DNA from: Acholeplasma sp.
GTDB taxonomy: Bacteria; Bacillota_I; Bacilli_A; ML615J-28; CAG-698
DNA length: 32,009 bases
Assembly: GCA_012838635.1 (NCBI GenBank)
Contig: DUOW01000020.1
Span: 1 to 32,009 of the forward strand
Direction: 5' to 3'
Made by a program: the position numbers and the translations under genes. Below, one piece after another: positions 1,202 to 25,414 of the stretch. Every line of letters starts with the position of its first letter. The stretch's first letter is position 1. The notes under the pieces are model-generated. The model was not told the origin of the DNA, ran no database searches, and saw only the letters and a list, made by a program, of their open reading frames with translations.

Positions 1202-1779
1202 TCTTTCTCCTCCTTGTTCCTTAGCTTGTGCAGATAGTGTAAGATATGTTTGTTTAATATCTGCTTTAAGTTTATCTTTAAACTCTTCAGAAATAGTTTC
1301 GTAAATAAGATCTAGTGCTGCTAATGCTTCTTTATTTGCTTCATCATTTAATGCTAATACTGCAGCTTCAAATTCTAAATTTTTAATGTGCTTATCAATT
1401 GTATCTTTTGCTTCATTAATTCCATTAGGAATTTTACTAGCCACATCTTTACTTAAATTATTGATTTTCCCTTTTAACTGATTTAAAGTAGCTAAAGATG
1501 CACTATCATAGTTAATATTTAATTCACCTAAGAATTTCAAACTATTAAGTTTAACTTTGGCTTCTACTAAAACAGCAAAGTTTGCAACTTTCTCTTGATC
1601 TTCTTCACTTAAAGCATTAAATTTTTCTTCAATCTCTTCAATTAATGCTTCATCTTCTAGAGTAACTTCACCAATATCATTAATTAAGTTCTCTACAGCT
1701 TTAAATGCCTCTTCCTTCTTACAACCAACTAAGGTTACAAAAAGGAAAAAACTAAAATAAATTTCAACGCTTTTTTCAT
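1202..1779 (-). pseudogene. Frameshifted lipoprotein with alpha-helical repeat, continuing in frame into NamZ
   Basis: GAGGTGG SD, then ATGAAAAAAGCGTTGAAATTTATTTTAGTTTTTTCCTTTTTGTAA (MKKALKFILVFSFL*). A neighbouring frame continues FLFVTLVGCKKEEAFKAVENLINDIGEVTLEDEALIEEIEEKFNALSEEDQEKVANF (lipobox LVGC, helical repeat) and stays open into NamZ. A 1-nt indel separates signal peptide and lipobox. Confidence 0.65.
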
Positions 1780-7141: not shown

Positions 7142-7863
7142 TTATTATCTCCATAAGCAGCATCATCAATAATTACAGTAACATTTGGATGTTTGTGTAA
7201 AATGCTTGCTGGAAAATCTTCTGATACTTTTTTAGATAATAATTTATTAACAGCATCTTGTTTACCTTTGCCACTAATTACCATTAAAATTGCTTTAGCA
7301 TCCATAATATTTTTAATTCCCATTGTAATTGCATACTTAGGAACTTCATCAATTGATGCAAAGAATCTCTTATTATCTTCTCTTGTTTTTTCAGCTAACT
7401 TAACTACAAATGTTTCTTGAGAAAAGCTAGTTCCTGGTTCATTAAAACCGATATGGCCATTACCACCAATTCCTAACAACTGTAAATCAACTGGATTTTT
7501 CTTTAATAATTCATTGTATTTTTTACAGTTAGCTTCTAAGTCATCTCCCTCAGATGATGGTAAATGCGTATTTGCTTTCTTAATATCGATGTCTTTAAAG
7601 AAATTAGTATTCATATAAGAATAATAACTTTGTTCATGATTTTTATCTAGTTGACAATATTCATCTAGATTAAAGCTTTTAACATCTTTAAAAGAAATCT
7701 CTCCAGCTTTGTACATTTTAATTAAATTTTTATAAGTACCAAGCGGACTTGAACCTGTAGCTAAACCTAAATTAGCTTTAGGATTTTTCTTAACTACATC
7801 AGCAATAATTTCAGCTGCTTTCTTACTCATCTCATCGTAGTCTTTAACTCTAATAATTTTCAT
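7138..7863 (-). CDS. nagB: Possible independently initiated glucosamine-6-phosphate deaminase within the fusion
   Basis: AGAAGGAGGAAATATGAAAATTATTAGAG: ideal SD and ATG at the expected NagB N-terminus. Confidence 0.6.
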   Translation of the reverse strand: MKIIRVKDYDEMSKKAAEIIADVVKKNPKANLGLATGSSPLGTYKNLIKMYKAGEISFKDVKSFNLDEYCQLDKNHEQSYYSYMNTNFFKDIDIKKANTHLPSSEGDDLEANCKKYNELLKKNPVDLQLLGIGGNGHIGFNEPGTSFSQETFVVKLAEKTREDNKRFFASIDEVPKYAITMGIKNIMDAKAILMVISGKGKQDAVNKLLSKKVSEDFPASILHKHPNVTVIIDDAAYGDNK

Positions 7864-9399
7864 ATTTCCTCCTTCTAATTTAATTGGTAAGCATCCTTTA
7901 AACTTACCACTATATAATAATTCTACTAAACTTTTCAAAGAAAGTAAAGTTGCTTCATATAAACAAATATAATTCTTTACATTCCTTAAATGTAAGATAT
8001 CATAAGGTGATCTCATACTAACTACAATTGTTTTAGCTGGATTCAACTTTTCCCAAACTTTAGTTTGATAATCGTCTTTTGTAATGTTGTATGTGCAAAA
8101 GATGATTTTATCAGCTAATCTTACTTCTTTTTCAAGTAACTCATTAGGAATAAACTTATCATTAATCACAATTTCCTTACAACTTAAGAAATTTTGTAAA
8201 GTAAAATAATCATTTTCTTTATTATCTACTAAACTAAATAGTTTAATTTCCGGAAAGATTGATAAAATCTTTTCTTTCCTTTTTAAAGGAATTAGTTTTT
8301 GATCTTTTACTAAAGTGATTGCTTCTAAAGCAAACTTTTCTGCTAATTTAGATTTTTCTTCTTTTGCAATAATACTTAAATTATTCTCAAAATCAATTGC
8401 TTCTTCTAAATAAAATTCCTTATATTTTAAAATCTTCTCTACTGCTTCATCAACTCTAGCAATTGGGATTTCTCCTTCTTCAACTAAACTAACAAAAGTA
8501 TGATAGATTTCTTGTTGCTCTTCTAAATCAGCCTTACCACAGAAACATAAAATATCATTTCCAGCTAAGACTCCCTTCTTCACAATCTCTTTAATACTAT
8601 AATTATCCCAAATAGCTTTCATCGTTAGTGAATCAGTAACAACTAATCCTTTAAATCCTAACTTTTCTTTAAGAAGTTTAGTAATAATATTATATGACAA
8701 GCTAGCAGGATTTTTTTCATCTAAACACTTATAAACAATATGTGACATCATTATCCCATTAGCTTTATTTTCAATAGCTTTTTTAAATGGGTATAATTCA
8801 ATCTTTTCAATTTCTTCTAAAGACTTACTAACGATAGGTAGTCCCAAATGACTATCAACACTCGTATCACCATGGCCAGGGAAATGTTTTACAGTTGCAA
8901 TTAACTTAGCATCCATAAATCCTTGACTTGCCCTTAAAACAAACTTAGCAACTTCTTTAGGGTTATCAGAATAACTCCTTGAATTAATCACAGGATTATA
9001 CGGATTATTATTAACATCTGCTACTGGAGCAAAATTAATACTAAAACCTAAGTGTTTTAAATCTCTTCCTGCTTGTTTATATAATTCATATGGATCCTTT
9101 CCACAAGCTGCAAAACCCATCGCAGCTAAAAGTGGGGTTATTCCTGCCTCAATTCTTTGAACCGGCCCACCTTCTTGATCTAAAGCAATAAATGGTTGTA
9201 CTTTCTTATCTTTAGAAATTTTGCTATTCAATTTGCTAACTTGTTTTAGTGAAGTAATATTTCTTTTAAATAAAATTACTCCACCTATACTTAAGTCATT
9301 TAGTAAAAAATCTAGTTGCTCATTATATTCTGTCCCATGAAAACTAAACATCAACATTTGCCCAACTTTTTGTTTTAGACTCAAATCCTCTAGCTTCAT
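7138..9399 (-). CDS. Fusion of a GH3 beta-N-acetylglucosaminidase (NagZ) with glucosamine-6-phosphate deaminase (NagB)
   Basis: NagZ signature KHFPGHGDTSVDSHLGLP; then MKIIRVKDYDEMSKKAAEIIADVV...LGLATGSSPLGTY...FNLDEY...LLGIGGNGHIGFNEPGTSF (NagB). One open frame; SD AGAAGGAGGAAAT precedes an internal ATG at 7863. Confidence 0.9.
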   Translation of the reverse strand: MKLEDLSLKQKVGQMLMFSFHGTEYNEQLDFLLNDLSIGGVILFKRNITSLKQVSKLNSKISKDKKVQPFIALDQEGGPVQRIEAGITPLLAAMGFAACGKDPYELYKQAGRDLKHLGFSINFAPVADVNNNPYNPVINSRSYSDNPKEVAKFVLRASQGFMDAKLIATVKHFPGHGDTSVDSHLGLPIVSKSLEEIEKIELYPFKKAIENKANGIMMSHIVYKCLDEKNPASLSYNIITKLLKEKLGFKGLVVTDSLTMKAIWDNYSIKEIVKKGVLAGNDILCFCGKADLEEQQEIYHTFVSLVEEGEIPIARVDEAVEKILKYKEFYLEEAIDFENNLSIIAKEEKSKLAEKFALEAITLVKDQKLIPLKRKEKILSIFPEIKLFSLVDNKENDYFTLQNFLSCKEIVINDKFIPNELLEKEVRLADKIIFCTYNITKDDYQTKVWEKLNPAKTIVVSMRSPYDILHLRNVKNYICLYEATLLSLKSLVELLYSGKFKGCLPIKLEGGNMKIIRVKDYDEMSKKAAEIIADVVKKNPKANLGLATGSSPLGTYKNLIKMYKAGEISFKDVKSFNLDEYCQLDKNHEQSYYSYMNTNFFKDIDIKKANTHLPSSEGDDLEANCKKYNELLKKNPVDLQLLGIGGNGHIGFNEPGTSFSQETFVVKLAEKTREDNKRFFASIDEVPKYAITMGIKNIMDAKAILMVISGKGKQDAVNKLLSKKVSEDFPASILHKHPNVTVIIDDAAYGDNK

Positions 9400-9420: not shown

Positions 9421-9447
9421 AAGGTGCTATTTACAAAATAGCACCTT
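9421..9447 (-). terminator. Intra-operon hairpin / weak terminator or mRNA-stabilising element
   Basis: 12-bp perfect stem AAGGTGCTATTT/AAATAGCACCTT, 3-nt loop, followed on the minus strand by the U-rich but interrupted ATCTTTATTTA. Confidence 0.6.
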
Positions 9448-9452
9448 TTATT

Positions 9453-10487
9453 TTAACCCGTAATTCCGGTTCTTTCAATTCCCTCTACAAATTGTTTTTG
9501 GACGAAGAAATAACCGATTAACAACGGTAGCATCATCAATAGTGCCGCAGTATTCGCAATTAATCCATAGAACATTGGATCGGTCGCTAACGATTCATCG
9601 GTTAAGGTATCAAAGATTGGTTTACCCAAAGCTACCCAACCACTAATAACCGTAAACAAACGATCTGTTCCTTCTCCTAAACGAGCTGCTAGTACCGGAT
9701 AAGATTGAACGATACTAAACAATCTCGCAAAGTAATAATCATTCCATTGCCATACGAAAGCAAACAATGCTACAACAACAATCGCTCCTCTTGCGTTCGG
9801 TAACATTACACTCCAGAATGTTCTAATAACACCAGCTCCGTCTACTTGTGCAGACTCTTCAAGTTCTACTGGAATGTTTTTAAAGAATTGTCTAAAGATA
9901 TAGATAAAGATTGCTGATCTAATACCTTGACCAAACGCTGATAGAATCAAGATTGATAATACTGTTCCCATAAGCTTTATTCCAAAGAATGGTGTATTAA
10001 CTAAGAATAAAGATCTTGAAACGTGTAATGTTTCATTCGGAACAACTAATGTAAATAGAATAATATAAAATAGAATATTACTTCCTCTAAATTTTAACTT
10101 CGAAAATGCATATCCTGCTACTGCTGTTGCCATAACTTGGATCACCATTACTACTAAAGAAAGAAGTGTTGTTCTTGCTAGAGTAGGCCAGTAATCAAGT
10201 AAGTCCATCGCTAGGCCAATATTAACTGTACTAAATTCTGATGGAATCCAAATAACTTGCGGATTAGTTAAGTCGTTAGGCGATCTAAAAGCATAAGAGA
10301 ACTTTTGGAAAATCGGTAATAAAATTGCAAAACATAATCCAATTAAGATTAATGTTCTAAAAATTCTTCCCGCTGTTCCACCAACTTTTTGCGCATAAAC
10401 TTTCCTTCTTGTTTTCTTTTCATGCTTTGTTAAAACAGGCTTTGTATAATATTCTTCAGGTACAACAAGTTTTTGTTTATTCGTCAT
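9453..10487 (-). CDS. Carbohydrate ABC transporter permease (MalG type)
   Basis: EAA loop EESAQVDGAGVIRTFWSVMLPNARG; multiple TM segments. Start adjusted to MTNKQKLVVPEE (provided ORF starts at 10514). Confidence 0.85.
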   Translation of the reverse strand: MTNKQKLVVPEEYYTKPVLTKHEKKTRRKVYAQKVGGTAGRIFRTLILIGLCFAILLPIFQKFSYAFRSPNDLTNPQVIWIPSEFSTVNIGLAMDLLDYWPTLARTTLLSLVVMVIQVMATAVAGYAFSKLKFRGSNILFYIILFTLVVPNETLHVSRSLFLVNTPFFGIKLMGTVLSILILSAFGQGIRSAIFIYIFRQFFKNIPVELEESAQVDGAGVIRTFWSVMLPNARGAIVVVALFAFVWQWNDYYFARLFSIVQSYPVLAARLGEGTDRLFTVISGWVALGKPIFDTLTDESLATDPMFYGLIANTAALLMMLPLLIGYFFVQKQFVEGIERTGITG

Positions 10488-11712
10488 AATAGAACACCAT
10501 CCTTGACACAACAATTAATACTAAAGAAATTAATATAATTGATGATAAACAGAATAACCAACTCATAGCTGCATGAATACCATGAGCTGTAACCATACCT
10601 AATCCATCTGTTAAGCTAACAAATTTATTTACAGAATAAGCCTCTAATGTTGTTAAGAGGTCACTTCTTAAGAAGGAGTCAACAACAGTATAAACACCTG
10701 CCGTAAGCATTAATGGTGAAACCATTGGAAAAGTAATTTTCCAGAAAATTTCATATTGAGTTGCCCCCTCCATTTTTGCTGCTTCATATAAGTGTTTAGG
10801 CACTGATTGAATCGCACTTAAGAAAATTAAAATCTGTACACCTGAATAAGTTATAACATCATAAATTGAGGACGTAACATTGCCTAAGAAGGTTACAATA
10901 CCTCCCGGAATTCCTGCTTCGAGTAAGAACATACTAAAGTCAAATCCACCTTGGAAGAAAGCACCTGTCGTCTCTTCAGTAGCTGATGTTAAAGCTGCAC
11001 CTGTAGTCATCGCAACTTCTACAGCTTGCGAGTTAAAGATAACCGGCATAAAGAAGACTGCTCTTACAAAACTACGGCCAGGAAATTTCGTATTTAAAAC
11101 AACTGCAAGAATTAAACTAAAAATTAATACTAATGGAACTTCAAGTAACGTATTACCAAAAGATGTTAATAGCGTTTGTCTAAATGTTGAATGTTGGTTC
11201 CAAACAAATTGATAGTTATCAAAACCAATATTTTCCGTAATTACTCCCATATTATCTCCTGTAATTGGATTTAAACCAATTGTTTGAATATGAGAGAAAC
11301 TATAGAAAACAGTTGTAATAAATGGAATTAAGAAGAAATATCCAAAACCAATAATTAGCGGAATAACAAAAACAAATCCCCATAAAGACTTTTTCTTTCT
11401 ATAAGTTAAGTTTCTAGTTAGCTTTCTTGGGATATAAGCTAAAGCATCTTTAATCTTAACAACTGTTTTAGAGTTATTTAACTTATAAAAGAAATCTTGA
11501 ATTGCCCATTTAGTTTTTTTATACCACGTAACCTTTTCTCTTCTAGCTTGGGCTTTAGCATCTTTTTCAAGTTGCTTTTGCATTTCCTTTTCTCTTTTAG
11601 CTTGAATTTTATCTTGCTTCTTTTGTTCTTCTAAAGCAATATAATATCTTCTCCTAGCAAAATAGTCATTCCATCTTTCTTTGAAGGTTTTTTTAGTTTG
11701 ATTTTGATTCAT
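10477..11712 (-). CDS. Carbohydrate ABC transporter permease (MalF type) with about 100-aa charged N-terminal extension
   Basis: EAA loop YEAAKMEGATQYEIFWKITFPMVSPLM; extension rich in K/E/R. Confidence 0.85.
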   Translation of the reverse strand: MNQNQTKKTFKERWNDYFARRRYYIALEEQKKQDKIQAKREKEMQKQLEKDAKAQARREKVTWYKKTKWAIQDFFYKLNNSKTVVKIKDALAYIPRKLTRNLTYRKKKSLWGFVFVIPLIIGFGYFFLIPFITTVFYSFSHIQTIGLNPITGDNMGVITENIGFDNYQFVWNQHSTFRQTLLTSFGNTLLEVPLVLIFSLILAVVLNTKFPGRSFVRAVFFMPVIFNSQAVEVAMTTGAALTSATEETTGAFFQGGFDFSMFLLEAGIPGGIVTFLGNVTSSIYDVITYSGVQILIFLSAIQSVPKHLYEAAKMEGATQYEIFWKITFPMVSPLMLTAGVYTVVDSFLRSDLLTTLEAYSVNKFVSLTDGLGMVTAHGIHAAMSWLFCLSSIILISLVLIVVSRMVFYYDE

Positions 11713-11714
11713 AA

Positions 11715-14700
11715 TTATTCTCCCTCCAAGATTATATAGTCGTTTGCAGCAATGGAAATTCCACTTATGCTGTCTAAATATGGGCTATTTGCATAGTTGA
11801 TGATAACTTTACAAACTGTACCATAATCATTTGCATACGTAGATTGAACTACGTTATCTGTAAGATACTTATGACCTACTAGCTTACCTTGATGAATCTT
11901 AGCTTCATTAATTTTTTGATTCATCTCGACAATTTTGTTTTCCCAGTTTAAGAAATAAGTATTGAAGTATTCTGTATAATCAGTTGTTAATAATGTATTT
12001 GTATCAGTATAAGAGACAACAAAGTTTAAGTTAGAACCAGTCTCTAATGCTTTAAGTAAATACCAACGATAAGATTGGGCGCTATTATAGTTAACTGTCG
12101 TTGTTGTGTAGTCAACTAAACCACTTAATGCTAACTGATATAAAGGAATTGAATACTCTACTGCTGGATATAAAGTTGTCGTTAATGGAGCATCAACAAT
12201 AATATTTGCATATTTAAATGCATAATCAAATGGGCTCTTAAGCATTACTTTCTTACCAGAATCTTTCGCAATATCTAAAGTAGCTACTTGATAATCTTGC
12301 CCTACAACAGTAAAGATTTCTTTCTTGCTATCATAAGATGAAATTTTCAAGTTACCTAAGTCCGATAAGTAAATACCAGAAGTATTAAGTTTCTCATAAT
12401 TAGCCAAGTATTTATTAAAGTATGATTGATAAAAACGAGGCGATAAGTGATAGATTGGAGCAAGTGTGCGGTCAAAACGACCAGTTGGTACTACATAAGG
12501 GTAGTAGACAGTTTCTGTATTACTTACACTCTTTGCATTGTACTTTCTCTTACCAAATGGATAATCGTATCCTTGGTTTGTAGAAACATTTACTTCTGGA
12601 TAGAAATTAATATTTCTTTCTGCTAAAAACTGGCTTAACTTCTTGAATCCTTTTGACCCACCTAGTACGCTAGAAATTCTAATATCTTTTCTAGCTTTAG
12701 ATTCCATCTCATCTTTAGTCCAAGCTGTATAACTAACACTAAAGTTTTCTACTCCTTTTTCTTCTAAAGTTTCAATAACTTCTTGTGCTTCTTCAAATGT
12801 TGTTAAGCTTTCTGCTTTGTTGTAAACAAAACCTAATTGCATTGCTTTCTTTTCAAAAGCACCTAAGAAATTTAAATTAACTACATTTGATTCAGTTGTA
12901 TCAATTTCTTGTAAATCGTACTTATTAATTAAATATCGACGATATTGTTTTGCAACCTCTACATAGTTAAAGTTAGCATTTGATTTCACTTCCCCATCTT
13001 CAATTTTTTCAGGAACAATAAACTGGAAGTAATATGAAAGGTCAGTTGGAATCCTTGATTTCGACCATTTTTGATATGAAGAAACATAGTAAGATCTTCC
13101 TACACTTACAAACTCTGAATCTCTCATACTTACTTCACAGTTAATATAGTTGGAACTGCCTGCTGTTCTTGTCCTCATAAAGTCAGCTACAATACTGTGG
13201 TGACTAGGAGCTTTTTCAATAATTGCAATCACGCCTATATTTTCTGTTTTGTCTAAGTAAGCATACATTGGAAGCATTATCGTTTGTACATCAGCAGGTT
13301 CGGTATTTAAGATTTGCGATTTATCAAAACCATAAACTCTCTTTGGTTGATAGCCCGAAACAAACTGATCTTGCTTATCACTGTTAAAGTTAATAACAGC
13401 ACCACTACCATCAGGGATAATAATCTCACCTTCAGATGTATGATCAAAGTTTTTACTAAAGTTAGGTAAAATCTCAATACTTGAAATCTTGAATTCATGA
13501 GAATAACCATCATCCCCACTTGAACCTTCTTTAATTGAATCGTGTAAGATATCAAACTTTAAGCCATTTATTGTAAGTTCATATTGAACCCCAACTTGGA
13601 AAATCGCACTTGCAGAAGCTGCAGATTGTTGATAAATTCTATTTTGCTCTTCTACAATATTCCTTTTTTCTTCACCTTCTTTAGCTAAGAAAGGTTCACT
13701 AAATTGTGCACGAACAGGGTTACCTAATTCATCATAAACAAAGTTCCCATCGGCATCTCTTAAAGGTACACCACCTTGAATAACTGGTTTACCTTCGTAA
13801 TAAACAATTTTACTATCATCATATTTATCTAAAACTGAAGTACTAGTTCTCATATAGTTTGTTGAACTAATATCGTATAAGAATGTATACAATTCATTTC
13901 TTCTAGCTTCTGATGTAGCCTTATTTTCATAAGTTTTTGAACTATTTTCTGTATAGTGAATATAGTTCTTATTTGTTTCATTAGTTTTAACGTTATAAAC
14001 AAGTTCGTAGTGACCATCCATAATTGACTTAATATTGGCTGCTGTTAAGAATGGATTAACATGAACTGGAGAATTTGGTGCATTGCAAGTTTCACCTAAA
14101 ACCATTTTTGGTTTTCCAATTTTATCTTCAGTAATCGTTCCGTCTTCATAATCTTCTTCAGTCCAAATTAAGTTGTTTAATGTCCAGTGACCTAAGAAAG
14201 TATTTTTACCATCTGAACTATAAACTGGTGTTGCCGTACCTAAATTGTTTTCTACAATATAATTAGCGGCTTCTTCACTAGTAGTAAGTCCATTTTCAAG
14301 GTAAATTAAATTATAATGTCCATGTGAGTCAACCTCATTTGATACAACTTTTGTAATCCAAGTGTTTCCTCTAACAATATCTTCAAAGACTTCTCTTTCA
14401 ATATATCTAGGGAAGAAGTTGTTAGCATTAGTAAAATCTCCTACTTCGTATAAAACTTGAACTTTATTATCACCTTCATAGTTAATCTTATAATGTCTTG
14501 TAGCTACACCTTTAATTAAGTCCATATAAGCTACACTCTTACTATAAGTACCTAAATTGTTAGCAGAAACCTTTCCACTTTTTCCAAAGTAACGAAGTCT
14601 AAAGACATCACCACTAACTAATTCTCCTTTTTCATTTACATAATCACTTAATTGATATAAAACATTAAATGATTCATATACATCAAAACCATTTTTATCT

Positions 14701-15668
14701 TTTACTTGAACACCACTAACTTTCTTTGGTGTTCCTGTTTCATTTAAACCAATTGATACTGAAGTAGTTTCTTCATTAATATACATTGTAAACTTGTCAT
14801 TTTGAGCTACAATTCGATCAGTTTCAAAAATTGAAGATTTATATTCAATATCATCTACTACTGAATTTAAAACTACTGACTCAACCATATTGTTTAAAAT
14901 GTTAACTGCTTTTTTCGTTTCTTTTGTGATGTTATCTAATACTTCTTGATCGGGTTCTTCAATCTCTTTTTGAACAATCGCTAATTGTGACATCTTTGTT
15001 TCAATTAACTTAATTGGATAGTCAAAAATAATTGTGAAGTTTTCCGTATCAACATTAGTATTATTGGGAACAACAACTTCTTGTTCTTCCATTTCACCTT
15101 CTTCTCCACCTTCTTTTGGAACTAAAATAATTCTCGTTTCATATGTGTCGAAGAAAGTCAAAGATTCTAATTCATCTACAATTCCTGAAAAAACATCTTT
15201 TCCTTTTTGTGTTAAAGCAACAATTTTTAAGTTGTTAACTCCTGGCTTGCCTTCATCATCTTCATAAAGTTCTAGACTAAAGTCATCAGTTTCAAAAAGT
15301 CTCGCCACGGCAAGTTGAGCTAAATACATTTCATTAGCAATAAGCTCTTCATTATCACCCACATTTAAGTTTATATAAATTGCTGTATCGCCATAATGAT
15401 TTGTTTTTTCAACTTTGTAACCAGCATCAGTTAAAGCTGTTGCTACACGCTCAACATCACTTTCAGAAAAACCCTTCTTAAAAGTAATTTTACGATCATA
15501 TTGTTCTAGATAAGAAAAATCAAGTAAAAATTCTTCAGAATCAAATTTTTGATTATCATAGCTAATTGTTGTTGCCTTTAAGCCACCAATAAAGTAAACA
15601 CCTAAAGTGATACCAATTGCTATAACTAATAGACCTAAAACAATATGTCTTAATCTAATAATTTTCAA
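11715..15668 (-). CDS. Very large membrane-anchored extracellular protein, DUF5696-like, possible GH-like TIM-barrel region
   Basis: 1317 aa; N-terminal TM anchor (IVLGLLVIAIGITLGVYFIGGL); TTG start with GGAGG SD; C-terminal segment ENFSVSYTAWTKDEMESK...FYPEVNVSTNQGYDYPFGKRKYN. Family name recalled from typical neighbourhood, not searched. Confidence 0.55.
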   Translation of the reverse strand: MKIIRLRHIVLGLLVIAIGITLGVYFIGGLKATTISYDNQKFDSEEFLLDFSYLEQYDRKITFKKGFSESDVERVATALTDAGYKVEKTNHYGDTAIYINLNVGDNEELIANEMYLAQLAVARLFETDDFSLELYEDDEGKPGVNNLKIVALTQKGKDVFSGIVDELESLTFFDTYETRIILVPKEGGEEGEMEEQEVVVPNNTNVDTENFTIIFDYPIKLIETKMSQLAIVQKEIEEPDQEVLDNITKETKKAVNILNNMVESVVLNSVVDDIEYKSSIFETDRIVAQNDKFTMYINEETTSVSIGLNETGTPKKVSGVQVKDKNGFDVYESFNVLYQLSDYVNEKGELVSGDVFRLRYFGKSGKVSANNLGTYSKSVAYMDLIKGVATRHYKINYEGDNKVQVLYEVGDFTNANNFFPRYIEREVFEDIVRGNTWITKVVSNEVDSHGHYNLIYLENGLTTSEEAANYIVENNLGTATPVYSSDGKNTFLGHWTLNNLIWTEEDYEDGTITEDKIGKPKMVLGETCNAPNSPVHVNPFLTAANIKSIMDGHYELVYNVKTNETNKNYIHYTENSSKTYENKATSEARRNELYTFLYDISSTNYMRTSTSVLDKYDDSKIVYYEGKPVIQGGVPLRDADGNFVYDELGNPVRAQFSEPFLAKEGEEKRNIVEEQNRIYQQSAASASAIFQVGVQYELTINGLKFDILHDSIKEGSSGDDGYSHEFKISSIEILPNFSKNFDHTSEGEIIIPDGSGAVINFNSDKQDQFVSGYQPKRVYGFDKSQILNTEPADVQTIMLPMYAYLDKTENIGVIAIIEKAPSHHSIVADFMRTRTAGSSNYINCEVSMRDSEFVSVGRSYYVSSYQKWSKSRIPTDLSYYFQFIVPEKIEDGEVKSNANFNYVEVAKQYRRYLINKYDLQEIDTTESNVVNLNFLGAFEKKAMQLGFVYNKAESLTTFEEAQEVIETLEEKGVENFSVSYTAWTKDEMESKARKDIRISSVLGGSKGFKKLSQFLAERNINFYPEVNVSTNQGYDYPFGKRKYNAKSVSNTETVYYPYVVPTGRFDRTLAPIYHLSPRFYQSYFNKYLANYEKLNTSGIYLSDLGNLKISSYDSKKEIFTVVGQDYQVATLDIAKDSGKKVMLKSPFDYAFKYANIIVDAPLTTTLYPAVEYSIPLYQLALSGLVDYTTTTVNYNSAQSYRWYLLKALETGSNLNFVVSYTDTNTLLTTDYTEYFNTYFLNWENKIVEMNQKINEAKIHQGKLVGHKYLTDNVVQSTYANDYGTVCKVIINYANSPYLDSISGISIAANDYIILEGE

Positions 15669-15683
15669 CTCATTTTCCTCCTT

Positions 15684-16409
15684 CTAGAAATATCGTAAGG
15701 TTATCTCTCGATATACTGTGTATGCAAAGCTAAAGATTTTACGATATAGGTCAAATAGTAATAATACAGCAAAAAGAATAACAATAGCTGCTACTAACGT
15801 AAACACTGCCATTAATACACATTTTAATAACCCATACTCATGAATAGCCATCCATCCTACAAATAGGAAATACACACTACCAAAAGTTCCAATACCCATA
15901 ATTAAATGATAAAGCCCTACTTCCTTTTCTACAATAATATTACTTACAAAAATTCCAAAAAACTTTGCTACAATCATCGGAAATAAAGCATAGCTTGTTA
16001 GAAGAAAGATATCTTTCATTGTTCCTTTACCATCAAATAGTGTTGTAACTGACCAGTTAGCAACAACTAAAACAGCTAAAGGTACGATAACATAAGCAAT
16101 CTCCGCTAATGTATTTAACTCTGTAATATCTCTTTGATTTACAATAAAACCAGAGTAATGGAAATCCATAATACTTAATAAAATATAAAGAACGATATAA
16201 GTAATAGCTAAACTCATTTTAGCTCTTTTATATCTTTTGAATTCATCAAACCCTTTGAAAGGTTGGAATAAAATATAAGTAGGAAACTTAATTCCTTCAT
16301 TCCATAAAAACTTAAAGAATTGAGCAATTTCAGAAATAACAAGTTTTACAATACTAAAAAACTTTTCTTTCTTAGAAACTTCAGTTGTCATAACTTCTCT
16401 ATTTTCCAT
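15684..16409 (-). CDS. YIP1-family-like integral membrane protein
   Basis: 241 aa; PFKGFDEFKRYKRAKMSLAITYIVLYILLSIMDF... followed by several TM segments; position next to the DUF5696-like gene. Confidence 0.6.
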   Translation of the reverse strand: MENREVMTTEVSKKEKFFSIVKLVISEIAQFFKFLWNEGIKFPTYILFQPFKGFDEFKRYKRAKMSLAITYIVLYILLSIMDFHYSGFIVNQRDITELNTLAEIAYVIVPLAVLVVANWSVTTLFDGKGTMKDIFLLTSYALFPMIVAKFFGIFVSNIIVEKEVGLYHLIMGIGTFGSVYFLFVGWMAIHEYGLLKCVLMAVFTLVAAIVILFAVLLLFDLYRKIFSFAYTVYREITLRYF

Positions 16410-18199
16410 TAATCCTCACCTACAATTCTCTTAATGTCTTTTCTTGGAATCTCCGCAATTTTACCTCTTGCAACTAAAATTAAAGCTGCTCCGATTGCTA
16501 AAACGGCAAAAGACGTAAAGTTAAGTTTAATTTCACGGTCACGATATCTTTGATAAGCATTTGAATAATAACTAGTTTCAAATCCTAAACGGAAGTTAGC
16601 CATTGCATCTTGATATCGATTTTCATTTAGTAATGATTTACCAATACCAATATAAGCAAGCTCGTAATTAGGGTTTTCCGAAACTACATTCTTCCATTCC
16701 TCAGCTGCTTCTGCTAATTGACCATTATATTGATATTCAACTGCTTTATTAATAATTCTAGCAATATCAGTTGGCTCAAAACGAATAACAGCTTTATTGT
16801 ATTTATCTAAAACTAAGATATCTTCACCTTGATAACGAACAGCTGTTGGGCTGTTGATATTATTTAACTCTGGACCAGAATTACCTGAGATGTAAAGTAA
16901 GTTACCTTCATCATCATAAGTAAACAGTCTTCCTTTTTTCTCATCTACTACTGTATAAACACCATAGTCATTAATTGCGATCCCCGCAAACCTAGATGAA
17001 ATCGAAATTCCATCACTAGCGCTACTACCAGCAAGAGAAAAGGCAATATCCCCTATTGGCATATGATAACCATTTTTAACTAACGTATCTTTTCCTGAAG
17101 GGTTAATCTTCTTAATCATATTGTTTGGATCTTCACTATAAGTAGATACTTTGATTGCTCTTGATACAGTATAGATAAATCCTGAATCATCAATTGCTAA
17201 GTTCCTAAACTCAGTATTTACAATCGCTGATTGTTTTTTAAGCTGTTCTTCAGTTGAAAAGTTACGCCAAAACTTATCCCAAGCTGTTAGAGTTGTATAG
17301 TTTACACCGATATAACTCATGAACTCACCAAAGTAGCTCATTTGCATAATACCTTCATAAACAGACTCAGAGATAACAAACATTCTTCCTGTTGAGTCAG
17401 TAACCATTTTTAAAGGTGAGAATGTCTTACCTTCAAAAACAATTGATGTTGGTTGGCTTACAACTTGGATAATATGGTAATCAACAGGATCTAATAGTAA
17501 GATTTGATTGTTACCTTTATCGCAAATGTATAAAACGTCTTGATATTCACCTTCAATAATGAAACCACCTTCATCTCTTAAAGGTCTTAAAGCACGATAA
17601 ACACCAGAAATATTTTTCGGTTGAATATACCATCTTTGACTATCAGCCCTACTTTCAACCGGTGTTTGTAGTGGTGCTGTAAATGTTAACCAGTCAACAC
17701 CATCAGTCGTATTACTAAATAGTTTATTACCTGTATCAGTACCAGTTTTTACTTTTTCGTATTCATCTTGAGTAATTGTATCTGGCCTAATTTCATAACG
17801 AGTAATAATTTCACCTTCATAAAAACGATCAACAGTTTCTCCTTTAAGGCGATATCTTCTTGTTCTTCTTGATTCATCACTACCTTGTTTTAGTTTTAAT
17901 GTGCTATCAAAAACATATAAATAGTTAGATGTTGAATCGATAATGTAAATTGTTTCTTCACCTGTAACCGGGTGTTTAAAAATAAACAAGTCTTCTGGAG
18001 AAGTGAATTGATCAGCTGGTATTCCTTCCCAGGCATTTGAGGTAATTGTATAAATACCATCTTTACTTGCACTCATACCTACAGTTGAGTGGATAGCTTT
18101 CTTCGCATGGTCGTAAGTATATCCACCTTTAGCTTCTACAATAAGTACAGTTGACCCCAGTAATAATAAAGCACTAAGAAAATAAAATATTTTTTTCAT
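16409..18199 (-). CDS. NHL-type beta-propeller protein with TPR segment and C-terminal TM helix
   Basis: N-terminal signal (IFYFLSALLLLGSTVLIVEA); propeller-like repeats (YICDKGNNQILLLDP, DILVLDKYNKAVIRFEP); TPR (GQLAEAAEEWKNVVSENPNYELAYIGIGKSLLNENRYQDAMANFRLG); TM (FAVLAIGAALILVA). Confidence 0.7.
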   Translation of the reverse strand: MKKIFYFLSALLLLGSTVLIVEAKGGYTYDHAKKAIHSTVGMSASKDGIYTITSNAWEGIPADQFTSPEDLFIFKHPVTGEETIYIIDSTSNYLYVFDSTLKLKQGSDESRRTRRYRLKGETVDRFYEGEIITRYEIRPDTITQDEYEKVKTGTDTGNKLFSNTTDGVDWLTFTAPLQTPVESRADSQRWYIQPKNISGVYRALRPLRDEGGFIIEGEYQDVLYICDKGNNQILLLDPVDYHIIQVVSQPTSIVFEGKTFSPLKMVTDSTGRMFVISESVYEGIMQMSYFGEFMSYIGVNYTTLTAWDKFWRNFSTEEQLKKQSAIVNTEFRNLAIDDSGFIYTVSRAIKVSTYSEDPNNMIKKINPSGKDTLVKNGYHMPIGDIAFSLAGSSASDGISISSRFAGIAINDYGVYTVVDEKKGRLFTYDDEGNLLYISGNSGPELNNINSPTAVRYQGEDILVLDKYNKAVIRFEPTDIARIINKAVEYQYNGQLAEAAEEWKNVVSENPNYELAYIGIGKSLLNENRYQDAMANFRLGFETSYYSNAYQRYRDREIKLNFTSFAVLAIGAALILVARGKIAEIPRKDIKRIVGED

Positions 18200-18203
18200 A
18201 AAC

Positions 18204-19202
18204 TTAATCCTTTAACCCACTCGTAGCCATTGTTTCAATCATACTACTTTGGGAGATGATAAACATCGTAATCGGTACTGTAATCATAATTAAACTTACC
18301 GCAGCTAACGTACCCGATCTTGCAGCACCAGCTGTTGCTATTTGCGATAGGGCATAACTTACCATCTTGAAGTCTTCTCTATAAATGTACATTGCACCTT
18401 GAGTATTCCATAAGCTTTGGAAAACTAAAATAATTAAAGTAATCCAAGCTGGTTTTACTAAAGGCATAACAATTGTCCAGAAAATCTTAAAGTCTCCAGC
18501 TCCATCTAGCTTTGCCGACTCAATATATGATGTTGGTACTTGTGACATAAACTGTTTCATTAAGAATAATCCTAATGATGAACCAATCATCGGCAAAATT
18601 AAAGCTAGTGGATTATCGATTAAACCAAGCCAGTTAAAGATAATATAGTTTGGAATCGATGTTACTGCTGCTGGGAACATTAACGAATAAACGATAATCG
18701 TAAAGATAACATTTCCACCAGGAATCTTATATTTTGCTAGTGGGTAAGCGCACATTGAAGCAATAACTACGTGTCCTACTGTTCCCAAAATAGTTACCAT
18801 AACTGTGTTAAATAGGTATCTAGCAAATGGAACAGTTGAGTTTGCTAAGGCAACGCTTAAATCTGTAAAGTTATCTAAAGTAGGGTTTCTTACAAAAATG
18901 TTTGGCGGGAACTTAAATAACTCATCTAGTGGTTTAAAAGCATTATTAATTACCAAAATTAAAGGTAAAGCACTTAAAATCCCCGCTACACATAGGAAGA
19001 AGAATAAGACTAAGTCTCCTCCTACTGATCTATTAATTCTCTTTTTCTTTTTACTACGACGATGTACCTTTATCGTACTAATTTCAGCGAAAGGACGAGA
19101 ATCAATACTTTTAGCACGTTTAGCATTACGAAGAGCTTTTTTATCTTCTTTTAACTGTGCTTTTTCAGCTGCAGTTAATTTAGCTTTTTTAGCTTGAGCC
19201 AT
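18204..19202 (-). CDS. Carbohydrate ABC transporter permease (MalG type)
   Basis: EAA loop IESAKLDGAGDFKIFWTIVMPLVKPAW; basic N-terminal extension. Confidence 0.88.
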   Translation of the reverse strand: MAQAKKAKLTAAEKAQLKEDKKALRNAKRAKSIDSRPFAEISTIKVHRRSKKKKRINRSVGGDLVLFFFLCVAGILSALPLILVINNAFKPLDELFKFPPNIFVRNPTLDNFTDLSVALANSTVPFARYLFNTVMVTILGTVGHVVIASMCAYPLAKYKIPGGNVIFTIIVYSLMFPAAVTSIPNYIIFNWLGLIDNPLALILPMIGSSLGLFLMKQFMSQVPTSYIESAKLDGAGDFKIFWTIVMPLVKPAWITLIILVFQSLWNTQGAMYIYREDFKMVSYALSQIATAGAARSGTLAAVSLIMITVPITMFIISQSSMIETMATSGLKD

Positions 19203-20206
19203 TATGATCCCACCTTTCCAATAATTTTTCTAATTAATTTATTTAAAACGATTGCGGAAACGAAAAGGATTGTCGCAATTGCCGAAGCATAACCCATCTC
19301 GAATCTTTGTCCACCATAGTCTTGCAAGTGGTTTACAATCGTATGACCAGCATAGTTAATAGAAGGGAAACCCGCTAAAGTAGTCGTTACAGCACCTACA
19401 CCAAGTGATGATGAGATTTGTAATACAGCACTAAATAAAAGCTGTGGTCTCATGTTTGGTAAGGTAATATACCATAACTCTTGCCAACGGTTTTTAACAC
19501 CATCAACTGCTGCTGCCTCATATTGTGATCTATCTACACCTTTTAAACCGGCAATCAAAGTTAAGAAGTTAACTCCTAAGCTCATCCAAAGCTGAACGAT
19601 AATTACAATCGGTAAGATGTATTTTTCTGTTTGAAGCCATAGAATTGGTTCTCTAATAAAACCCCATTTAATTAAGAAGGCATTGGCATAGCCATAAATA
19701 TCACTAGAGAAAATCAAACTCCAAATCGTAATCGCACCTCCAGAAATTGAAGGAGCATAGAAAATTAAAGTTACAAATGCTCTTAATTTATCTGGAAGTT
19801 CATTAATTAACCAAGCTAGAATAAATGAAATTAAATATCCTAATGGCCCAGTAATAATTGCGATAATTAAAGTATTTTGAACAGCTATAATGAAAATTGG
19901 ATCATCAAGTAACAATGTTAAGTAGTTAGACCAACCAATAAATTTAGGAGCTTCAAGTAAGTTAAAGTATGTAAAACTTAAAAAGAAACTCATTAAAACA
20001 GGTAAAACTGTAAATAAGAAAAATAGTGCTAAATAAGGAATCATCATTAAATATAATGTTTTATTTAACCAGAATTTTCTTCTTGCTGGTTTTTTTCTGC
20101 TCCAAATGTCTAAACGGCGGGCTGTATCTTCTTTCCACTCACGAAAAGATCTTCTTTTCTTAATAGCTTGGTTATCTACCATAACTTTATCAGCCATACT
20201 ATGCAA
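19202..20206 (-). CDS. Carbohydrate ABC transporter permease (MalF type)
   Basis: EAA loop YEAAAVDGVKNRWQELWYITLPNMRPQLLF; TM segments; overlaps neighbours. Confidence 0.87.
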   Translation of the reverse strand: MHSMADKVMVDNQAIKKRRSFREWKEDTARRLDIWSRKKPARRKFWLNKTLYLMMIPYLALFFLFTVLPVLMSFFLSFTYFNLLEAPKFIGWSNYLTLLLDDPIFIIAVQNTLIIAIITGPLGYLISFILAWLINELPDKLRAFVTLIFYAPSISGGAITIWSLIFSSDIYGYANAFLIKWGFIREPILWLQTEKYILPIVIIVQLWMSLGVNFLTLIAGLKGVDRSQYEAAAVDGVKNRWQELWYITLPNMRPQLLFSAVLQISSSLGVGAVTTTLAGFPSINYAGHTIVNHLQDYGGQRFEMGYASAIATILFVSAIVLNKLIRKIIGKVGS

Positions 20207-23200
20207 TATCCTCTCTAGTTATAAAACCAAATTCTTTTCTTTTCTTTGTCAACTCGGCATTAATTGTATTTACATAAGTTAGAAGTATTTCTCGAGGATT
20301 CTTCTTTTCGTTAATTGTTTTTCTAAAAGCATTCTCGACGTTTCTTCCTGTATAGTAACCACCAGCTACTTCTGGAATACCAACTGTATTAACCCATTGA
20401 GAAAGTAAAACTTCTTTTTCTTCTGTTGTCCAAGCCATACTCTTGAAAGCATCCATATTCGCTGTGTTATGACGAGCTGCCGAACCTAAAATTGACTCTA
20501 ATTCCTGAGCATAAGATAATTGTGTTGGAGCGGATGTAACCCACTTTAAGAACTCCCAACTTGACTCAGGATCTTTTGTTTGTTTCATAATAATACCTGC
20601 TGATCCACTTGCAGCACCTTTGTTATTAACGATTCCAGTTTCAGAATCTTTCACACCTGGAATTGGTGCAAAGCCCCATTTACCAGTAATCTCTGGTGCG
20701 AAAACAGCAAGGTAGTTAAAGTTTGTATAATCTACAACTCCAATTGGAGTTTCACCTGTTCTAAATCTGTTTAAGAAACTTGCAGCTGTTGGGAAAGAAT
20801 AATCTGTATAATACTTAACCCAAGTTTCAAATGATTGCAATGCTTCTTCTCTATCTAAAGCTGTTGCTGTTTTATCTTCTGTATAGAAACTACCACCATT
20901 TTGGAATAACATCGAAGCAAACACTTGGTTTACAGCTGCTGATGCACCAACAGCACTTAATGGAAGATAGAATTGTAAGTTAGAAATTTGTAACTCAGTT
21001 ACTAAACTTGTAACTTCATCCCATGTTTTAGGTACTGTCCATCCTCTTTCTTCAAAAATATCTTTTCGATAGAAAGTAACTAAGAAAGATTGGGTGATTG
21101 GTAGAGCATAAAACTCTAAATCATTCACATCTGCTGTTTTTTGTAAAGCATAAGGTGTCATTGCACTATCAGCAAATCTTGGAGTAGATTCACCATTGAT
21201 CAACAATCTAACTCCATATTCGGTAACTTCATATTTAAAGTCATCAAATTGTGAAATATCATAAGAAGCATTTCTTAAAGCATAGTTTACAGGAAGTCCG
21301 TTATATACGTTTAAGGCTACATCTGGGCCTGTACCAGCAAGTGTAGCCGGTAATAAAACTCCGGGATCTACAACCTTTAAAATAACGTTAATTCCGTATT
21401 GGTTAGTAAATGTTGTGTCAGATAAAGTTTTTAAAGCATTAGCTTGCTCTCTACCAGCAACAGCACTAGTTAAGAACCATACTTCAATTTCTTTATCAAA
21501 TCCTTCGGCATGTGTTACGCCAATTGATTGATAATCAAAGAAGAAAGTCATAAAGAAAGCTTTAATATCAAACCATGTTCCGCTAAACCAGTCAGCATTT
21601 GGTTTTGGTAGTTCAGCATCACTACTTGAAACATACAATGCTTCAACTGTAAGTGATTGTTCTTGAATACTTGTAATCCAAGTTCCAAGTGAAGATAAGT
21701 TTTGAACAAACGTTCCTAATCTTTCTTGAATTGTTCTTGGCTTTTCTAAAAATGATTCAAGCTGAATTGCCATTGTATCTAGTACGGATACTAAACTTCC
21801 CTTTTCTCCTGAAAGCTGAGTAATATGTTCTGATACTTCTCTTAATCTAATTGCATTTTCTTCAAAACACTCTAATAAACCAACAATACGAGCATTATCT
21901 CCATATAGGTGATATTCTTGGTATGGGTCTGGGTTAACTGTAGTTATAGAAATGATTTGTAAATACATATTATTTAAATCATTAACAACATTTTTAACTT
22001 GGTTAATCGGACCACCATATGCTCCTAATGTTGACTCTAATCTAATCGTGTTAATTCCTTCATGGAAATAAAACTTATATTTTTCTTCACTATTTCCTAA
22101 AGTAACTAATCGCCAATTTGTACTGTAATTGAAATTAGAGTTATTAGCTTCAATAAATGGAATTTCTCCATTAATATATAATCTTCTTGTAGAGAAAAGT
22201 CCACGAGCTGTATTCTGTTTAGCTTTAAAACTAAGTTCATACATTCCCGCTTCTTCCACATCAACTTCCCATTCAATCCAATCTCCAGGTGCTGTCCATT
22301 TTGTACCACCAATTGAGTTTAGTGTTATTTTAACTGGATGCGATGGAGTGTTTGTTGGCGAAGTACGATCAGCAATCGCATATAAAGTAGGAGATGAACG
22401 TTTTGTTGAATTTTCAGCTTCTACTTGTAACATTACATTACTTGGCTCATTCTTATCTTGATGTTGATTTAGATAATCTTGATAAGTAACAACTTCAGGA
22501 ACTGCTTCAACTGTTAAAGAAATAATACTCATATTTTCTCTAATTGAATCAAAAGTAATTGTATTAGCTCCTGCTTTGAAATAAAACATATAAGGATTAA
22601 CTACATAACCTGTATAATCTCTTATATAGCTTTGATTTACATCAAATATTTCCATTTGTGATGGTTTCATATCATTGCCATTAATGTCTTGAATGATTTC
22701 TCCTTTGTCTTTCCACATTCTATAGAATCTAATGTTTCGAGCAGATTCAAATGGTAATTCACCATTAATCAAAATAATTCTCTCAACATTGGCACCACCA
22801 CTAGTATCTCTAACATTGAAACTTTCATCACGAAGTTTCTCAGCATAATATTCTACTTTCAAATAATAGAATCCTGCCTCAGGAATATCGACAGGAAAAG
22901 TAATACTTCCTGTTTCTGATGTGTAATATCCTGCCTTTTTTTCTCCATTTGGTAAAACAATTGAGTTATTAGGATCATCTACATCCATATACTTAAAGTC
23001 AATTGCATTTGCACTTGGAGTACCCAATGTTATGTCTACTGTAATATCTTCAACTTGAGGTTTTACAATCAAAGGTTTAACGTCTTTATTAAAATCCAAT
23101 ACTGCTAATCTTTGAGGATCAGAAATACCCGTAGCCTTAGCTCTAATGTAGTTATTGTAATCACCTTCGGGATATAACTCTTCTGGAATATATGAATCTG

Positions 23201-23450
23201 ACGTTGTTCGATCTGGTCTAAAACTCTTCACAATTGAAACTGTGATGATTGTTACTAGTAAAACTAAAATTGTAATCCAAATTGCTCGTTTAATCATCTT
23301 CACACGATTAGTTTTACGCTTTAGTTTACTTTCACTTGAATCAACTAAATCATAATTCACAGTAGTAATCTTGACATCTTCAATTGCTACTGCTTCTTTT
23401 TTAACTTCTTCAACTTCTTGTTCTTGAAGTTTCTTTTCTTCTTTACTCAT
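20199..23450 (-). CDS. Membrane-anchored extracellular solute-binding protein with two CBM-like domains
   Basis: Charged cytosolic N-terminus then TM (AIWITILVLLVTIITVSIV), no lipobox; two beta-sandwich CBM-like regions (ETGSITFPVDIPEAGFYYLKVEYYAE; GTKWTAPGDWIEWEVDVEEAGMYELSFKAKQNT); C-terminal SBP domain (IEVWFLTSAVAGREQANALKTLSDTTFTNQYGINVILKVV...GPDVALNV). Confidence 0.75.
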   Translation of the reverse strand: MSKEEKKLQEQEVEEVKKEAVAIEDVKITTVNYDLVDSSESKLKRKTNRVKMIKRAIWITILVLLVTIITVSIVKSFRPDRTTSDSYIPEELYPEGDYNNYIRAKATGISDPQRLAVLDFNKDVKPLIVKPQVEDITVDITLGTPSANAIDFKYMDVDDPNNSIVLPNGEKKAGYYTSETGSITFPVDIPEAGFYYLKVEYYAEKLRDESFNVRDTSGGANVERIILINGELPFESARNIRFYRMWKDKGEIIQDINGNDMKPSQMEIFDVNQSYIRDYTGYVVNPYMFYFKAGANTITFDSIRENMSIISLTVEAVPEVVTYQDYLNQHQDKNEPSNVMLQVEAENSTKRSSPTLYAIADRTSPTNTPSHPVKITLNSIGGTKWTAPGDWIEWEVDVEEAGMYELSFKAKQNTARGLFSTRRLYINGEIPFIEANNSNFNYSTNWRLVTLGNSEEKYKFYFHEGINTIRLESTLGAYGGPINQVKNVVNDLNNMYLQIISITTVNPDPYQEYHLYGDNARIVGLLECFEENAIRLREVSEHITQLSGEKGSLVSVLDTMAIQLESFLEKPRTIQERLGTFVQNLSSLGTWITSIQEQSLTVEALYVSSSDAELPKPNADWFSGTWFDIKAFFMTFFFDYQSIGVTHAEGFDKEIEVWFLTSAVAGREQANALKTLSDTTFTNQYGINVILKVVDPGVLLPATLAGTGPDVALNVYNGLPVNYALRNASYDISQFDDFKYEVTEYGVRLLINGESTPRFADSAMTPYALQKTADVNDLEFYALPITQSFLVTFYRKDIFEERGWTVPKTWDEVTSLVTELQISNLQFYLPLSAVGASAAVNQVFASMLFQNGGSFYTEDKTATALDREEALQSFETWVKYYTDYSFPTAASFLNRFRTGETPIGVVDYTNFNYLAVFAPEITGKWGFAPIPGVKDSETGIVNNKGAASGSAGIIMKQTKDPESSWEFLKWVTSAPTQLSYAQELESILGSAARHNTANMDAFKSMAWTTEEKEVLLSQWVNTVGIPEVAGGYYTGRNVENAFRKTINEKKNPREILLTYVNTINAELTKKRKEFGFITREDIA

Positions 23451-25305
23451 TGTTTTCTCCTTGTAATGCTTTGTAGTGAAGCTTTCCTAATTTAAAGACT
23501 GCTTCCAACATTTCCATTGACTCAGCTAGATTGCTTTGTTTATTTCTAGCTAGCCATAACTCTTTTTGTTTATTTAATATTTTTTCCTTCTTAAATAGTT
23601 TTTCCAACAATTTAAGTTTCTTACTTTTAGCTAATTTAGGATTAAAACTTTGCATTAATAATCTTGTAACTAAAACTAAATCAATACTTTGGTTAACCTC
23701 ATCAATAACTAACTTTTTATCTTTAATCTTTAGTTTAGTATTTTTTAGCCCTTTTCGGTAAATTTCTAAATAATCTACTAAAGCTTGATATTTAGCTTCT
23801 TCAATAATGCTGTTTTTAATTTTCTCATAGTAATATTCTAAAGGTGCATCTTGCTTTAAAGCATAACTTGCCCACATATAACCAAAGAAAGTTAATGTAG
23901 CATTTGTAATATAGTAGTTTTCAAATTGATAATAATTACCAATCCCAAGTAAGATTTGGGCAAAGTTTCCTTTTTCATCTTTAAATACTTCTTCGTTTAA
24001 GTATTTAACAACATTAACCATTTCACCTTCTTCTAGACTCCAAGAATAAAATCCTGCAAACACTAAAGGTGCTACAATTGATGGAAGTAATTGCAAGTGA
24101 CCTGCATCACCCCAATCAGTTAGTACAATACCTAAACCATTGTATTTATAAACATTATCACATGCACTTTTAATATTTGCGATAAAGTCATAAGTTCTAC
24201 CAGTAAAACTACACCAACTTGTCGTACCAGGAGCAGCAGCAAATTTAATATTTAACGTTCCTAAAGTTTTTAATGTTTCAGAAAACTTATATGTAGCATC
24301 ATAACCCCAATCAATAAAGATAATATCTTTAGGTAGTTTCTTTAAAGCCTCTTTGTCTTTAATTAAAACATCCCCCCACATAATTGGTTTTTTATCGTAT
24401 TTTTTAACTTCTTCTAACACTAAATTTAAGTAATCTAAATAAACATTACTTAACCCTTCTTTTTCCACAATCTCCTTAGTCTTACCCATCCCAAGTTCCA
24501 TTGGTTCATCAAAGTTAATATTGAAATATTTAGACTTTCGTCCAGGTAACATCTCTTCATACATCTTACTTACTAGTTTGATTGATCTTGGATCTTTTGG
24601 ATCTACTGTCACCGGATCTCTATGTCTACCCCAATAGAAGGCTCCATCAGGACAAATAGCTAAATCTTTATATTCTTTTGTGGCAAGCCATGGTCCCATA
24701 TGACCAAAACCATTTTGGTTAGGAACAAAATCTATTTCTCTTGCAAAACAGTAATCTTCAATTAACCTATATTCATTCTTCGTAATATAGCCATCTTCTA
24801 ATAAATACTTTCTTGCAAAGTCATATTCATAGCTAAACCCCTCTACATATAACTCAAAATGATTCATCTTTAATTCTGCCATAAGATCAATGATTTTGTA
24901 GATAGTTTCGATCGTAGGTACTTTATTACGACTAATATCTAAAGTAAATCCTCTTACTAAAAGCTTTGGTTCATCCCAAATCTCTACAGTTTCGATTCTC
25001 TCTGATTTAAAGATTTGCTTTAAAGTTTGGCTTGCATAAAAAGCTGAAGCTGCATCATTGTAATAAATATCAATCTTATCTTTATCAATAACAATCTTAT
25101 ATGTTTGAATAGATCTTGCCTGTTCATAGATAAAATTAATATCCCCGATTTTGTTTGTTTTCTTTACTTTAAGAAATCTCTTTAGATTATCAAAAACGTT
25201 TTCTAAATTTTCAGTTAAAAAAACGGAATATTTATCTTTCTTTGTAAATTCTTCTTTCGTATATTTAATATACTTAACCTTTGGGTAAATCTTATACAAT
25301 TTCAA
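23443..25305 (-). CDS. GH20-type beta-N-acetylhexosaminidase, apparently cytoplasmic
   Basis: LLVRGFTLDISRNKVPTIETIYKIIDLMAELKMNHFELYVEGFSY; FVPNQNGFGHMGPWLATKEYKDLAICPDG; candidate catalytic D-E in KYFNINFDEPMELG. TTG start with AAAGGAA SD; no signal peptide. Confidence 0.78.
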   Translation of the reverse strand: MKLYKIYPKVKYIKYTKEEFTKKDKYSVFLTENLENVFDNLKRFLKVKKTNKIGDINFIYEQARSIQTYKIVIDKDKIDIYYNDAASAFYASQTLKQIFKSERIETVEIWDEPKLLVRGFTLDISRNKVPTIETIYKIIDLMAELKMNHFELYVEGFSYEYDFARKYLLEDGYITKNEYRLIEDYCFAREIDFVPNQNGFGHMGPWLATKEYKDLAICPDGAFYWGRHRDPVTVDPKDPRSIKLVSKMYEEMLPGRKSKYFNINFDEPMELGMGKTKEIVEKEGLSNVYLDYLNLVLEEVKKYDKKPIMWGDVLIKDKEALKKLPKDIIFIDWGYDATYKFSETLKTLGTLNIKFAAAPGTTSWCSFTGRTYDFIANIKSACDNVYKYNGLGIVLTDWGDAGHLQLLPSIVAPLVFAGFYSWSLEEGEMVNVVKYLNEEVFKDEKGNFAQILLGIGNYYQFENYYITNATLTFFGYMWASYALKQDAPLEYYYEKIKNSIIEEAKYQALVDYLEIYRKGLKNTKLKIKDKKLVIDEVNQSIDLVLVTRLLMQSFNPKLAKSKKLKLLEKLFKKEKILNKQKELWLARNKQSNLAESMEMLEAVFKLGKLHYKALQGENNE

Positions 25306-25344: not shown

Positions 25345-25373
25345 ATTATACTACAAAAACGATTTTTTTTCAA
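25345..25373 (-). promoter_or_regulatory. Sigma-A-type promoter for the GH20/transport operon
   Basis: Minus strand TTGAAA-N17-TATAAT. Confidence 0.7.
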
Positions 25374-25388
25374 GGTCAAATTGAATAA

Positions 25389-25414
25389 AAAAAGAGCATT
25401 TTTATGCTCTTTTT
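25389..25414 (-). terminator. Rho-independent terminator ending the upstream operon
   Basis: 11-bp stem AAAAAGAGCAT/ATGCTCTTTTT, 4-nt loop, minus-strand T-run; overlaps the stop codon of the DigH-like gene. Confidence 0.85.

Follow-up and report, generated by a model that had tools for sequence, protein, structure and literature searches.

A recurrent eight-gene module with two ABC permease pairs and a GH129-like protein, DUF5696, as a probable glycan-uptake system in Acholeplasma and other bacteria

Several described systems allow bacteria to take up or salvage glycans. The alginate importer brings in long glycans, and to our knowledge has one permease pair and no NHL, Yip1 or DUF5696 partners. 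The mur cluster of Bacillus subtilis serves peptidoglycan salvage by NagZ, NamZ and MurQ. Gram-positive CUT1-type oligosaccharide importers, which have an MsmX-type ATPase in common, combine an SBP_bac_1 protein with paired BPD_transp_1 permeases, with the ATPase gene located elsewhere. The available excerpts of a paper on GH161 beta-1,3-glucan clusters in Acholeplasma laidlawii and Paenibacillus list a glucan phosphorylase, GH16, GH3 and permeases and no ATPase gene, and give the binding protein of the A. laidlawii cluster as missing (PMC6484121). Here we describe a locus which, judged from its genes, belongs with the binding-protein-dependent ABC importers as a new variant. We found no paper describing this module in the literature searched, and DUF5696 appeared in none of it.

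The window, meaning the whole stretch of 32,009 nucleotides that was analyzed, is a single contig from an Acholeplasma sp. genome assembly that measures 1.04 Mb and is 98% complete. A sequence-only reading had claimed that a binding protein, two permeases, an NHL/TPR protein, a Yip1-like protein, a DUF5696-like protein and two further permeases follow one another here, and ORF calls with Pfam searches place eight open reading frames with these families, all on the minus strand from 23450 to 9453, in the order SBP1-A1-A2-NHL/TPR-Yip1-DUF5696-B1-B2 (Table 1). BPD_transp_1 exceeds its curated cut-off in all four permeases. NHL and TPR both stay below theirs in the window copy (NHL at 16.2 bits, cut-off 20), and NHL passes it in relatives. 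Neighboring genes overlap by 8 bp (SBP1/A1), 1 bp (A1/A2 and NHL/Yip1) and 38 bp (B1/B2), or are separated by 4 bp (A2-NHL), 15 bp (Yip1-DUF5696) and 2 bp (DUF5696-B1). The block is bracketed by a promoter-like site ahead of the GH20 gene and a terminator-like repeat past B2, both of them consensus matches only. A serine beta-lactamase-like hydrolase and Dus are also encoded upstream of the module, and a YesL-like membrane protein (labeled by reading; no Pfam match) downstream.

Table 1. Features of the window, in order of position.
Feature	Position	Strand	Evidence and remarks
NamZ exo-muramidase, without signal peptide	59..1540	-	Pfam
SBP2, lipoprotein-like (LFGC), Big_2 domains	2868..6080	-	placed by our HMM with the second binding protein adjoining the module in most named loci
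Double-GNAT protein, ~320 aa, downstream of module	6185..7141		
NagZ-like GH3 fused to NagB-like glucosamine-6-P isomerase, without signal peptide	7138..9399	-	Pfam; motif KHFPGHGDTSVDSH read in sequence
Terminator-like inverted repeat (12 bp, followed by a T-rich tail), between B2 and NagZ	9421..9447	-	consensus match only
Permease B2	9453..10514	-	BPD_transp_1; closest solved relative AlgM2, 1.5e-14
Permease B1	10477..11712	-	BPD_transp_1
DUF5696 protein, 1317 aa	11715..15668	-	DUF5696 2e-122; N-terminal TM anchor 1-33; GH129-like fold (predicted)
Yip1-domain multi-TM protein, 241 aa	15684..16409	-	Yip1 PF04893, 2.3e-12, 47.6 bits, over cut-off
NHL/TPR protein, 596 aa	16409..18199	-	hydrophobic signal-like N-terminus 2-25, NHL propeller, TPR, C-terminal TM 557-579
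Permease A2	18204..19202	-	BPD_transp_1; closest solved relative AlgM2, 3e-19
Permease A1	19202..20206	-	BPD_transp_1; closest solved relative AlgM1, 1.8e-17
SBP1, solute-binding protein, 1083 aa	20199..23450	-	SBP_bac_1 at 676-977, 6.6e-21, 76 bits
SBP1 membrane anchor	20199..23450	-	single N-terminal TM 50-79, no lipobox; sequence features
GH20 hexosaminidase-like, without signal peptide	23443..25305	-	Pfam; overlaps SBP1 by 8 bp
Promoter-like TTGAAA-17-TATAAT, ahead of GH20	25345..25373	-	11/12; consensus match only
GHL10 glycosidase-like, without signal peptide	25413..26696	-	Pfam
Double-GNAT protein, ~320 aa, upstream of module	26693..27688		
M19 dipeptidase, peptidoglycan-salvage context	28757..29644	-	Pfam
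Diaminopimelate-decarboxylase-like	29644..30948	-	PF02784 and PF00278

The same series recurs in many other genomes. Of 43 genomes scanned in the order, 39 have a DUF5696 match at E 0.001 and 38 have one above the curated cut-off; in a phylum sample of 295 genomes, 44 exceed that cut-off. Among named genomes, DUF5696 has at least 556 relatives. From the order and phylum scans we fetched 80 loci of up to 20 kb each and mapped them with HMMs built from the window proteins, and the named-genome scan contributed 80 further loci, among the matches listed, that span Acholeplasmataceae, Izimaplasma, Paenibacillus, Cohnella, Gracilibacillus, Halalkalibacter, Thermobacillus and Lachnospiraceae including Butyrivibrio. 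The complete eight-gene series was present in the same order and on the same strand in 126 fetched loci, or 127 with the window. Loci scored as incomplete were mostly cut by a contig end, had lost an ORF to a longer antisense frame in the ORF caller, or carried a joined B pair; B1 and B2 form one ORF of 617-638 aa in five loci (L088, L091, L100, L102 and L131). In complete modules the median gaps between genes run from -11 to +13 bp, with most gaps at 30 bp or less, and SBP1 is present in all 127. Conversely, the order's 43 genomes contain 53 full-length Yip1 matches, of which 51 have DUF5696 no more than 4 kb away; the sole Yip1 of the window's own genome is the module copy. With 126 other fetched loci showing the same full order, chance co-location of the eight genes can be ruled out. 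This is the neighborhood survey that the sequence-only reading had proposed as a check, and its result, that DUF5696, Yip1 and NHL/TPR recur together with paired permeases, supports treating the three non-transporter genes and the two permease pairs as one recurrent unit.

Two of the accessory proteins are linked still more tightly. NHL/TPR and Yip1 form a single fused chain in 39 of the 127 complete modules, which is direct evidence that they act together. (Since our NHL and Yip1 HMMs were both trained on fused proteins, the two labels are interchangeable in the locus maps, and identities were settled with Pfam.) A fused relative (L109) was modeled with a mean pLDDT of 86.5 as a propeller, TPR and helices, and the model matches the NHL propellers of TRIM proteins; the Yip1 protein of the window has several hydrophobic TM segments. 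Sequence and model are consistent with an NHL propeller outside the cell, carried on a Yip1 membrane scaffold. Nearest neighbors agree in being fused or split 97-100% of the time, where the base is 68% (123 modules, kinship ignored), and the distances of seven components correlate pairwise at 0.79-0.96 across 123 non-redundant modules, without correction for the species tree.

The enzymes encoded beside the module vary. GH10 accounts for 17 of 77 scanned flanking proteins, and GH43, GH3, GH38, GH95 and a fucosidase also occur beside other modules, as do GH16 with GH3 and, at locus L125, a GH149-like glucan phosphorylase; 18 of 24 GH10 matches have no hydrophobic N-terminus by a simple score. 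Given a fixed module with changing neighbors, the locus is, as far as gene content tells, a glycan-uptake chassis that stays constant while its cargo varies. Peptidoglycan is what the enzyme set of the window suggests (NagZ, NamZ, GH20, GHL10, the dipeptidase and the decarboxylase), and its fragments are most likely the cargo here. Since the degradative enzymes of the window are without signal peptides, breakdown probably takes place inside the cell. NamZ occurs in 15 of the 80 loci of the window's own phylum, and LD-carboxypeptidase in related loci. MurQ and a MurNAc kinase are absent from the Pfam matches of the window; a related locus, L112, encodes a MurQ-like SIS protein and a BadF-type kinase. 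The double-GNAT proteins recur in peptidoglycan-type loci. NagZ-NagB is one ORF of 753 aa in the window and of 759 aa in a locus of the same genus (L092), and is split (~510 and ~240 aa) in several relatives. The NamZ ORF is preceded by an ORF-poor gap (1541-1946) and begins with a 112-aa stretch (1203-1540) that has no Pfam match; NamZ of relatives is mostly ~375-390 aa long, and translation probably starts at an internal ATG. Because no match to the penicillin-binding transpeptidase PF00905 was found in the 98%-complete genome, which has one Mur-ligase-domain protein, the host is probably a wall-less bacterium. The best reading of these gene contents is probably that a wall-less bacterium salvages the wall material of foreign bacteria.

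What might DUF5696 contribute to uptake? By family profile and predicted structure it is a GH129-fold homolog. From residue 272 onward the window protein was predicted with a mean pLDDT of 92, and the best solved Foldseek matches of the model are GH129 (3e-26), followed by GH101 and GH36. Searched against the PDB as a single sequence, the window protein had no match; the family profile alone did, matching solved ZgGH129 at 2.8e-9, and hhalign of the DUF5696 profile with a profile of GH129 proteins from Paenibacillus-type genomes gave 6e-10. Residues ~75-270 are an N-terminal insertion, with an alignment occupancy of 0.05-0.11 among 79 members.

The active site is where the family departs from GH129, whose catalytic residues we take to be an Asp and a Glu, in agreement with the PDB title ZgGH129 D486N. 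The acid/base Glu is replaced by Lys1144 in the window protein; only 19 of 127 members have E at this position. The rest carry S, N, D, Y, K or another residue, with variation even between closely related Paenibacillus members. The GH129 motif GSEGGND is retained as EGGN in some Paenibacillus-type members, which sets the site two residues earlier than hhalign had it, and we dropped the strict proline suggested by that alignment. The candidate nucleophile site, an Asp at the end of strand 4 in GH129, falls at S1102/D1103 with an uncertainty of one residue; D is found there in 68 of 127 members, at a degenerate site where the alignment is not exact to the residue. An ordinary active GH129 was dropped as a candidate since the acid/base residue is not conserved. 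One could still imagine a membrane-anchored glycosidase whose active site has been remodeled and which trims surface glycans before uptake: the fold is like that of GH129, GH101 and GH36, some members keep EGGN, in 79 aligned members N1193 never changes and position 1209 is D or E with few exceptions, and D1103 may be the nucleophile counterpart and retain residual or altered catalysis. With so few members keeping the acid/base residue and only about half the candidate nucleophile, we consider an active enzyme unlikely. The same loss, with lysine in the window, makes doubtful the glycan "processing" at the membrane that had been read from the sequence, a step that also sits poorly with degradative enzymes lacking signal peptides. 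DUF5696 is most likely a glycan-holding pseudo-glycosidase whose catalytic activity has probably been lost; it would presumably bind glycan, and holding or guiding is likelier than processing.

The transport genes raise a different question, namely whether the module is one system or two. An EAA-like coupling loop can be read in each of the four permeases. Pfam found no cognate ATPase gene inside the window. The genome's one MalK-type ATPase is encoded on a different contig and is probably shared because further BPD_transp_1 permeases lie elsewhere in the genome; a single MsmX-type ATPase whose gene lies outside the module probably powers it. The window copy of SBP2 has no SBP_bac_1 match in Pfam, and its relative in L112 matches SBP_bac_1 at 4.5e-11. 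With a loop in every permease and possibly a binding protein for each pair, there might be two ordinary ABC importers side by side (SBP1 with A1/A2, SBP2 with B1/B2), with NHL, Yip1 and DUF5696 acting at the surface independently of one another, though within the same regulon. Parallel divergence lends this some support: SBP1 distances track A2, NHL/Yip1 and A1 most closely (0.92-0.94), and those of DUF5696 track NHL/Yip1 best (0.96), then the B pair (0.92-0.93) and the A pair least. However, a regulon alone fails to explain why one order and strand hold from Acholeplasmataceae to Lachnospiraceae with the accessory trio always between the pairs, and we give separate importers rather little credence. 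A role of the trio outside the import path, in sensing glycans to control the operon or to bring in the ATPase, seems more improbable still. Partner binding is common for propeller and TPR domains, and Yip1 is a membrane domain for which we know of no transport chemistry, but Pfam finds no signaling output domain (kinase or DNA-binding) in the window trio.

We therefore favor, with reasonable though not full confidence, a conserved glycan-uptake module of two permease pairs, one or more binding proteins and three fixed accessory proteins. Two MalFG/AlgM-like permease heterodimers would be served by the single MsmX-type ATPase, and membrane-anchored SBP1, usually together with the lipoprotein SBP2, would work with them. 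The extracellular NHL propeller/TPR domain would be tied to the Yip1 scaffold, and the membrane-anchored, GH129-derived DUF5696 would hold or thread the glycan and not cut it. In the window, peptidoglycan fragments would then be depolymerized in the cytoplasm by GHL10, NamZ, NagZ and GH20. Sizeable oligomers would presumably enter by this route, we infer that the module proteins touch each other, and it is plausible from their gene arrangement that all eight products act as one machine. The sequence-only reading had likewise proposed one envelope machine; the recurrent eight-gene unit, the NHL-Yip1 fusion and the adjoining glycan enzymes in many lineages favor that part of it, and the membrane processing step falls away. 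More tentatively, and we would call it possible but not probable, the inactive GH129-derived protein and the NHL-Yip1 scaffold keep a long glycan in place above both permease pairs, which are coupled and import it jointly. We know of no described counterpart to such joint import.

The module is widespread, and in cultivable Paenibacillus and Lachnospiraceae it sits beside enzymes for xylan and other glycans. If our reading is true, it assigns a role to DUF5696 and to bacterial NHL-Yip1 proteins and points to a concrete way in which bacteria without walls could feed on the peptidoglycan of others. It may also account for published glucan clusters with a seemingly missing binding protein, as far as the excerpts describe them. 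Those GH161 clusters (PMC6484121) resemble the module in the kind of neighbors, and a GH149-like phosphorylase lies beside L125; the excerpts make no mention of the accessory genes. B. subtilis mur salvage has NagZ and NamZ homologs in the window, and its further steps have likely counterparts in the MurQ-like SIS protein and BadF kinase of the related locus; it differs in that uptake here is proposed to run through an ABC module, and no transpeptidase was detected in the genome that carries it. With the GH129 glycosidases (NagBb, 5wzn; ZgGH129, 5opq/8rzk) DUF5696 has fold and detectable sequence homology in common, but it is without the conserved acid/base Glu, has a TM anchor and sits in an ABC operon. 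The alginate importer AlgM1-AlgM2-AlgS with AlgQ1/AlgQ2 (4tqu and others) supplies the nearest solved permeases, AlgM1/AlgM2, for A1, A2 and B2. Compared with CUT1-type importers, with which it shares an SBP_bac_1 protein, paired BPD_transp_1 permeases and, probably, an ATPase gene located elsewhere, the module has two permease pairs, a TM-anchored binding protein of ~1000 aa and three fixed accessory proteins.
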